From Bacillota bacterium (GTDB lineage: Bacteria; Bacillota; Limnochordia; Darwinibacteriales; DTU012): a DNA stretch of 41,183 nt. Below are positions 24,637 through 25,679 of this stretch, piece by piece (position 1 is the first letter of the stretch; every line of letters starts with the position of its first letter). The notes under the pieces are model-generated. The model did no database searches. It was not told the DNA's origin and was given only the letters and a program-made list of their open reading frames with translations. Where the stretch lies: positions 1 through 41,183 of the forward strand of contig JAAYMV010000005.1 of the NCBI GenBank assembly GCA_012521185.1, in the 5' to 3' direction. A program made the translations under genes and the position numbers.

Positions 24637-24676
24637 TATTATAAGACAAGCTATCACGGATATGGAGGTGAACTTA

Positions 24677-25468
24677 ATGGGAAAATCTGAACAAATTGTT
24701 ATCCTCGATTCTGAGTCACGTCATATTGGCAAAGAATGCATTAAATGTCAAGAAAAGTTTGTCGAAAACGACGAAATCGTTGAATGTCCCCGCTGCCATC
24801 AACTACATCACGTCGATTGCTGGAAAGCTCAAGGTGGATGTGGTAGGTATGGTTGTCCGCAAATTGCTAAAACTGTTATTGATACTAGCCCAAAAGGTGA
24901 TGGACCACCACCAAGTATTCCACGTAAGTATATTTATGCTGGTATCACAGTTGCTCTTGTTATTATTCTTACAATGATTTTCTGGCCTAAACCACCTGAT
25001 CCAGCTGCTGGTCGAACTAAAGTAGTTGCCCTAATCGAAGCTGGTTTAGAAGAAGTTGAAGAGTTAAACCGGATAGTTGACCAATTTAATAATACTAGTG
25101 AAGATATATATATTGTGCTTCAAACAACTTCTGTGACCTTGTTAGAACAACAACTAATGGTGCGGGCAGCTGCGGGAGATGCTCCAGATATTTTTAGTTT
25201 GCCTTATAACCGATATGAAACTTTCTTAAATCTAGATGCTTTTTATCCTTTAGGTATAGAAGAGGAGCCTTATTACGGGGTGGAACATCCATCAAAGCTA
25301 AGAACGCTCCATATATTCTTTGCCACTAAACATCCTGAGGAATCAATAAAGGTATTAAAATATCTCGTTACTGAAATGCCGAGACAAGACTTATCATTAC
25401 TAAAAGAACAAACCGGACTAATTGTTCCTGATACCGTATTAGACATAGAAAGTTTTTTAGCTCAATAA
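24677..25468 (+). CDS. RING-finger / membrane anchor / shortened solute-binding-like fusion protein
   Basis: 263 residues in three parts. Residues 21-60 carry a prokaryotic RING-type zinc finger: C-x2-C-x12-C-x2-C-x4-H-x2-C-x6-C-x4-C, including ECPRCHQLHHVDCW. Residues about 84-102 are one transmembrane helix (YAGITVALVIILTMIFW), preceded by basic residues, so the RING should be cytoplasmic and the rest outside. Residues 115-263 resemble a family 1 extracellular solute-binding protein (IVDQFNN; VRAAAGDAPDIFSLPY; FFATKHPEESIKVLKYL), but the central region of such proteins is missing. ATG 24677 follows GGAGGTG. I know of no characterised protein with this layout and assign no function. The small tyrosine-rich ORF follows at 25527. 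Confidence 0.8.
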   Translation: MGKSEQIVILDSESRHIGKECIKCQEKFVENDEIVECPRCHQLHHVDCWKAQGGCGRYGCPQIAKTVIDTSPKGDGPPPSIPRKYIYAGITVALVIILTMIFWPKPPDPAAGRTKVVALIEAGLEEVEELNRIVDQFNNTSEDIYIVLQTTSVTLLEQQLMVRAAAGDAPDIFSLPYNRYETFLNLDAFYPLGIEEEPYYGVEHPSKLRTLHIFFATKHPEESIKVLKYLVTEMPRQDLSLLKEQTGLIVPDTVLDIESFLAQ

Positions 25469-25526: not shown

Positions 25527-25679
25527 ATGTTGTTATACGATCCTTATTGCATTTATGATTTTCAGTATGAACATTATGATTACAATTATGATTTTGATCG
25601 CTATTATCCAGCTAAGCAAAGTAATTTAGAAAACAAAGAACAAATTCAAGAAAAAGAAGATAGTAACAAGAAGAGCTAG
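25527..25679 (+). CDS. Small tyrosine-rich protein, 50 residues
   Basis: Starts MLLYDPYCIYDFQYEHYDYN. Nine of the first 27 residues are tyrosine, interspersed with aspartate and aromatic residues; the last 20 are charged and hydrophilic (EQIQEKEDSNKKS). No signal peptide or membrane helix. Support for translation is AGGAG 6 bases before the ATG, a stop codon inside a good terminator, and its place directly behind the RING-finger gene. Its ribosome site is locked in a hairpin whose left arm starts only six bases after the stop of the RING-finger gene, so translation may depend on the upstream ribosome. Tyrosine-rich short proteins occur among spore coat components, but I have no evidence for that role here. 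Confidence 0.55.
   Translation: MLLYDPYCIYDFQYEHYDYNYDFDRYYPAKQSNLENKEQIQEKEDSNKKS

Follow-up and report, generated by a model that had tools for sequence, protein, structure and literature searches.

The textbook binding protein is a clamshell of two lobes. The origin of such proteins from one lobe is a question that has been pursued with engineered halves, and single PBP lobes made in the laboratory are able to fold by themselves (PMC10601554, PMC9815098). A lobe separated from its partner also retains ligand binding in several binding proteins of type II, whose binding residues sit largely on a single lobe, usually the discontinuous one (PMC10601554). A natural example is RmSBP of Rhodothermus marinus (PDB 5Z6V), an exported solute-binding protein (SBP) that has one alpha/beta lobe and no known function and is similar to the C-terminal domain of amino-acid SBPs, its gene often lying close to one for a chemotaxis receptor (PMC10805632).

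The window (the whole stretch of DNA analyzed, 41,183 nt from a member of the class Limnochordia, phylum Bacillota) contains a gene at 24677 to 25468 (+, stop codon included) that differs from each of these systems. It is a genuine ORF of 263 codons, backed by homologs, with an ATG start at 24677 that is served by a GGAGG ribosome-binding site at 24664 to 24668 (+); GGAGG/GAGG-like sites lie upstream of most homologs too. We are highly confident of the anatomy of the 263-aa product: a RING-type zinc finger, one membrane helix, and a single lobe of a sugar-binding protein (hereafter, half-SBP). Unlike RmSBP, it keeps the N-lobe of a sugar-type SBP, joined to a zinc finger; the C-terminal lobe of an amino-acid SBP and a neighboring chemotaxis receptor gene, which mark the RmSBP type, are not features of this gene, among whose neighbors no chemotaxis genes were recognized. 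The engineered lobes, for their part, were constructed from ribose-binding protein, which has the type I fold, and are not type II lobes that occur in nature. In the open literature covered, which did not extend to the account of prokaryotic RING fingers by Burroughs et al. (2011), neither an N-lobe half-SBP nor its fusion to a RING-type finger was found, and the combination is a previously uncharacterized surface protein built from known kinds. Such a conserved natural single type II lobe offers a direct way to ask whether a lone lobe binds a ligand, a partner, or both, and its transmembrane fusion is a testable case for the role of Prok-RING_1 in bacteria where no ubiquitin-type conjugation gene was found.

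Zinc finger, membrane helix, and outer lobe

The C4HC3 zinc finger (residues 17 to 60; 24725 to 24856, +) has exactly the spacing first claimed for it, C21-x2-C24-x12-C37-x2-C40-x4-H45-x2-C48-x6-C55-x4-C60, and its RING-type identity was borne out by a profile match of residues 17 to 55 to the Pfam family Prok-RING_1 (PF14446; E = 8.5e-9; 35.7 bits, gathering score 29.1), which is matched by 15/15 fingers of the protein family. All eight zinc ligands are identical in the 48 aligned finger-bearing homologs (48/48), as are P38, R39, W49, and G59, and the finger presumably binds zinc; for Prok-RING_1, two zinc ions in a treble-clef/cross-brace geometry would be expected. The initial annotation called RING-type fingers rare in bacteria; one is indeed present here, but it is less exceptional than stated, since Prok-RING_1 is a recognized bacterial family, found in this phylum at the N terminus of other membrane proteins too. 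The gene product resembles those in that a C4HC3 finger with eight ligands, which scores above the gathering cutoff, forms the N-terminal part of a membrane protein, and it is set apart by the addition of one helix plus a half-SBP. In the others, the finger sits atop a zinc ribbon and several helices (L108, 5009 to 6028), heads an RDD-domain membrane protein (L143, 1874 to 2632), or is followed by a bare single helix in a protein of 120 aa (L099, 6194 to 6553).

Past the finger, the alignment places a Gly/Pro-rich linker (residues 66 to 82; 24872 to 24922, +) with a KGDGPPP motif in most relatives, which leads into the single membrane helix (residues 83 to 103; 24923 to 24985, +). Both a helix in the structural model and a hydropathy peak mark this segment, in agreement with the proposal that one transmembrane helix joins the finger to the SBP part.

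The outer segment had been read as the start and end of a family 1 SBP with the center removed. That it is a shortened family 1 SBP holds; profiles and AlphaFold2 models point to one complete lobe rather than a damaged fragment. In the window protein taken alone, this segment falls below SBP thresholds (SBP_bac_8, E = 0.26; no family at E = 0.01), and SBP_bac_1 is matched by 13/14 family members (best E = 3.9e-13), with the family profile matching solved SBPs at E-values of up to 5.8e-19. Judging by sequence, the outer domain is thus homologous to SBP family 1 (PF01547), a relationship that reaches the window protein alone only via the family profile. In the match to 3uor, profile positions 5 to 114 correspond to residues 32 to 140 and positions 120 to 142 correspond to residues 304 to 326. 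Wherever the second stretch also matches, among solved SBPs and full-length SBPs of the phylum, the two stretches lie 6 to 12 profile positions apart in the family versus ~155 to 180 residues apart in the full-length proteins; the missing part is therefore lobe 2 of the SBP, removed where the chain crosses the hinge. The protein thus keeps the discontinuous N-lobe together with its return strand and helix, with a short turn in place of lobe 2.

Part 1 of the lobe (residues 112 to 203; 25010 to 25285, +), supported by the match of the family profile to SBP structures, by models, and by Foldseek, runs strand-helix-strand-helix-strand-helix and then enters the first hinge strand. At the site of the absent lobe 2, the alignment and profile place an HP-containing turn (residues 204 to 208; 25286 to 25300, +), in which the H is found in 43/49 alignment rows and the P in 48/49; H204 and P205 may be retained merely for hairpin closure. 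The return strand and helix (residues 209 to 234; 25301 to 25378, +) correspond to the second profile stretch and are modeled as a strand at 209 to 213 and a helix at 220 to 233, after which a C-terminal tail of short helices (residues 235 to 263; 25379 to 25465, +) varies among relatives. Members outside the window's order have a fuller lobe, with ~20 extra residues before the hinge strand; the window's order has a further shortened stretch at this point.

Structure prediction from a three-row alignment gave a pLDDT of 78 and a pTM of 0.57 for the whole protein, and a pLDDT of 84 and a pTM of 0.82 for the lobe alone, which is predicted in the AlphaFold2 models to fold by itself as a single SBP lobe. 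The top Foldseek matches of both models are the N-lobes of sugar-binding SBPs (for the lobe alone, probability of ~1.0 and rmsd of 1.2 to 2.9 Å across the top seven), with E-values that are weak because only the first ~75 residues align without crossing the absent lobe. The gene product shares with family 1 SBPs (PF01547, the MalE/sugar type) the strand order of the N-lobe, a PD motif, the YG hinge strand, and the SxHPxxAWxxL return helix. In contrast to these two-lobed proteins, it has no lobe 2 and hence no interlobe cleft, its anchor is a helix that follows a zinc finger, and it is not part of an ABC operon. SBPs otherwise carry a signal peptide or a lipid anchor, whereas here ~82 residues, including the finger, precede the helix, and a lipobox occurs only in finger-less relatives.

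Conservation, neighborhoods, and finger-less relatives

A protein search recovered homologs in 53/61 related genomes, with a few of the matches spanning the finger only or the SBP part only. With a full-length profile at E = 1e-25, the gene is present in 56/73 genomes of the class, always in a single copy, and the same search did not find it in four class families (f6, f11, f14, and f16). The three-part layout, whose recurrence in related genomes had been proposed as a check, is kept in these 56/73 genomes, which is more than chance. Pairs of relatives give a dN/dS of ~0.1 for the finger, the linker-helix, and the lobe alike, in comparisons for which dS is near saturation. We consider it barely conceivable that an SBP gene has here decayed or been misassembled so as to lose an internal piece: the outer part does lack ~155 to 180 aa that full-length SBPs have, but the layout and junction are identical in all 56 genomes, the reading frames are open in nearly all, and conservation, single copies, and low dN/dS in every part rule out an internal-deletion artifact. 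The conserved layout therefore represents a real protein kind and no broken gene. In genome G011, from the same order, a relative of the gene (L057; G011:C47) encodes the membrane helix and half-SBP with the finger absent, which suggests that the finger can be lost.

Within the window's order, stable housekeeping synteny surrounds the gene, which has a divergent RNase H gene on one side and convergent LemA and TPM genes on the other and is therefore probably transcribed alone; elsewhere in the class, the neighbors differ. Clustering of neighbors at 37 loci disclosed no conserved operon partner, only this housekeeping synteny within the order. Beside the gene in its own class, no ABC permease or ATPase genes were recognized.

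A scan of the phylum uncovered, in other families, short proteins in which an apparent lipobox or a plain N-terminal helix takes the place of the finger and helix ahead of the same half-SBP, and whose genes have different neighbors (half-SBP lipoproteins: L127 to L138 and L144; longer form: L140, L141, L145, L146, and L168). The lobe is the same, and the junction is equal to within one residue in f64, f98, and f23, where 18 to 19 residues separate the YG hinge strand from SxHP, as in the finger-bearing family. In the longer form, the half-SBP is followed by ~170 extra C-terminal residues, apparently a further architecture of the lobe. Most of the lipoproteins carry the signature Q158, D168, and R179, residues that are common to half-SBPs with and without the finger and less common in full-length SBPs; R179, which by our reading of the MBP sequence would fall at Arg66, a sugar contact, occurs in 38/49 members of the finger family, 12/15 lipoproteins, and 2/19 full-length SBPs. 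In a tree of half- and full-length lobes, for which the alignment was built on the half-SBP profile, a branch of modest support (77/92; 70% of bootstrap trees) sets the full-length SBPs to one side. A single loss of lobe 2 for the half-SBPs would fit this tree but is weakly supported by it. Since half-SBPs with the same junction occur without the finger, the half-SBP is tethered to the membrane in several ways, of which the Prok-RING-helix unit is one.

The contexts of the half-SBP lipoprotein genes suggest surface or envelope roles without agreement on one. In f64 (L127 to L132), the gene lies between the C-terminal half of a transketolase and a series encoding FtsE, FtsX, an M23 hydrolase of PcsB-like type, and the S41 protease CtpA; in f98 (L133), it adjoins CtpA (S41), after WecG/TagA and transketolase. 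A possible envelope link follows from these two neighborhoods. An FtsX link of the f64 type was dropped for the finger-bearing class, in most of whose tested genomes FtsX was not found. In f99 (L134 to L138 and L144), a diverged half-SBP lipoprotein is the last gene, immediately downstream of the gene for an oligopeptide-type SBP and the accompanying ATPase genes.

Candidate functions

We tentatively favor, at somewhat less than even confidence, a single-pass membrane adaptor or sensor in which the half-SBP recognizes a ligand or partner outside the cell and the Prok-RING finger lies in the cytoplasm, the protein being neither an ABC-importer SBP nor a ubiquitin ligase. A topology with the finger inside and the lobe outside is most likely because SBPs, and the lipoprotein forms of the half-SBP, are extracytoplasmic, and the apparent lipoboxes of the related half-SBPs lend support by analogy; charge around the helix is uninformative (K/R are richer before the helix in only 21/51). 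The outer part would be the N-lobe of a family 1 sugar-type SBP, with the second lobe cut out at the hinge and a short turn in its stead. Because lobe 2 is missing, the clamshell cannot close on a ligand, and the lobe would bind a ligand or partner protein without Venus-flytrap closure; given that isolated lobes of several type II binding proteins bind and that the discontinuous lobe is the one kept here, half-site recognition of a ligand or partner is favored. On the inner side, the eight-ligand finger would act as a protein-interaction module, through which the inward protein contact is made, or serve structurally to cap the anchor, and the presence of Prok-RING_1 atop several membrane proteins of the phylum fits such a general role in cytoplasmic interaction or capping. 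Binding of a ligand or partner, and signaling, would then be the tasks of the half-SBP protein, though the finger could be structural only, as G011 keeps the lobe without it, and no conserved operon partner points to what the protein would contact.

Three other readings of the lobe strike us as individually improbable, and to a like degree. The protein might be a split receptor of Limnochordia, in which the outside lobe would enclose a ligand together with a second lobe, supplied by a free SBP or by a loop of a permease, and the finger would signal this to the inside, with half-SBPs constituting a widespread type II single-lobe receptor module of Bacillota. It is similarly doubtful that the anchored half-SBP is an accessory subunit of ABC sugar importers that modulates transport by docking to a permease or a free SBP, its zinc finger touching the ATPase side: the kept lobe is like that of a sugar SBP, its own genome is rich in SBP_bac_1 proteins (14 matches), and the f99 lipoprotein gene directly follows SBP and ATPase genes, but that version is more diverged and matches weakly (~50 bits), and transporter genes were not recognized adjoining the gene in its own class. 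Nor do we give better prospects to a cell envelope regulator, in which half-SBPs would attach to glycans of the cell wall or surface and work together with proteases and hydrolases of the wall. The FtsE/FtsX/PcsB-like M23/CtpA and CtpA neighborhoods of f64 and f98, and the convergent LemA and TPM genes in the window's order, argue for it; against it are the failure to find FtsX in most tested finger-bearing genomes, the absence of an envelope neighbor common to class members, and the chance that the f64 and f98 neighborhoods are plain synteny.

Far less probable still is a membrane ubiquitin-like E3 ligase or quality-control receptor. The finger has a C4HC3 pattern and weak similarity in common with RING and PHD domains, and there is precedent in the prokaryotic RING-type E3 proteins of bacterial ubiquitin-like operons (PMC7159879). 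Its best eukaryotic matches, however, are a mixture of PHD, C1, F-box, and RING types that does not clearly indicate an E3, and no E1, E2, or ubiquitin-like genes were recognized beside the gene. E2-type genes (PF00179 and PF14461) were also not found in 41 related genomes, but the control genomes gave none either, such that their absence is unproven. Our preferred reading thus remains the membrane adaptor or sensor with an outer half-SBP.

The small downstream ORF

The small ORF that had been reported after the gene does exist, at 25527 to 25679 (+), and is weakly conserved in four relatives; no Pfam family matches it. In G011, it remains by LemA, with a glycosyltransferase gene parting it from the half-SBP gene, an arrangement on which we set it aside as a partner of the latter; it probably lies outside this system. 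The ORF is tyrosine-rich (MLLYDPYCIYDFQYEHYDYNYDFDRYY...), and its core, IYDYQYxxYGYNYDFDxY, is conserved in L062, L064, L066, and L097.
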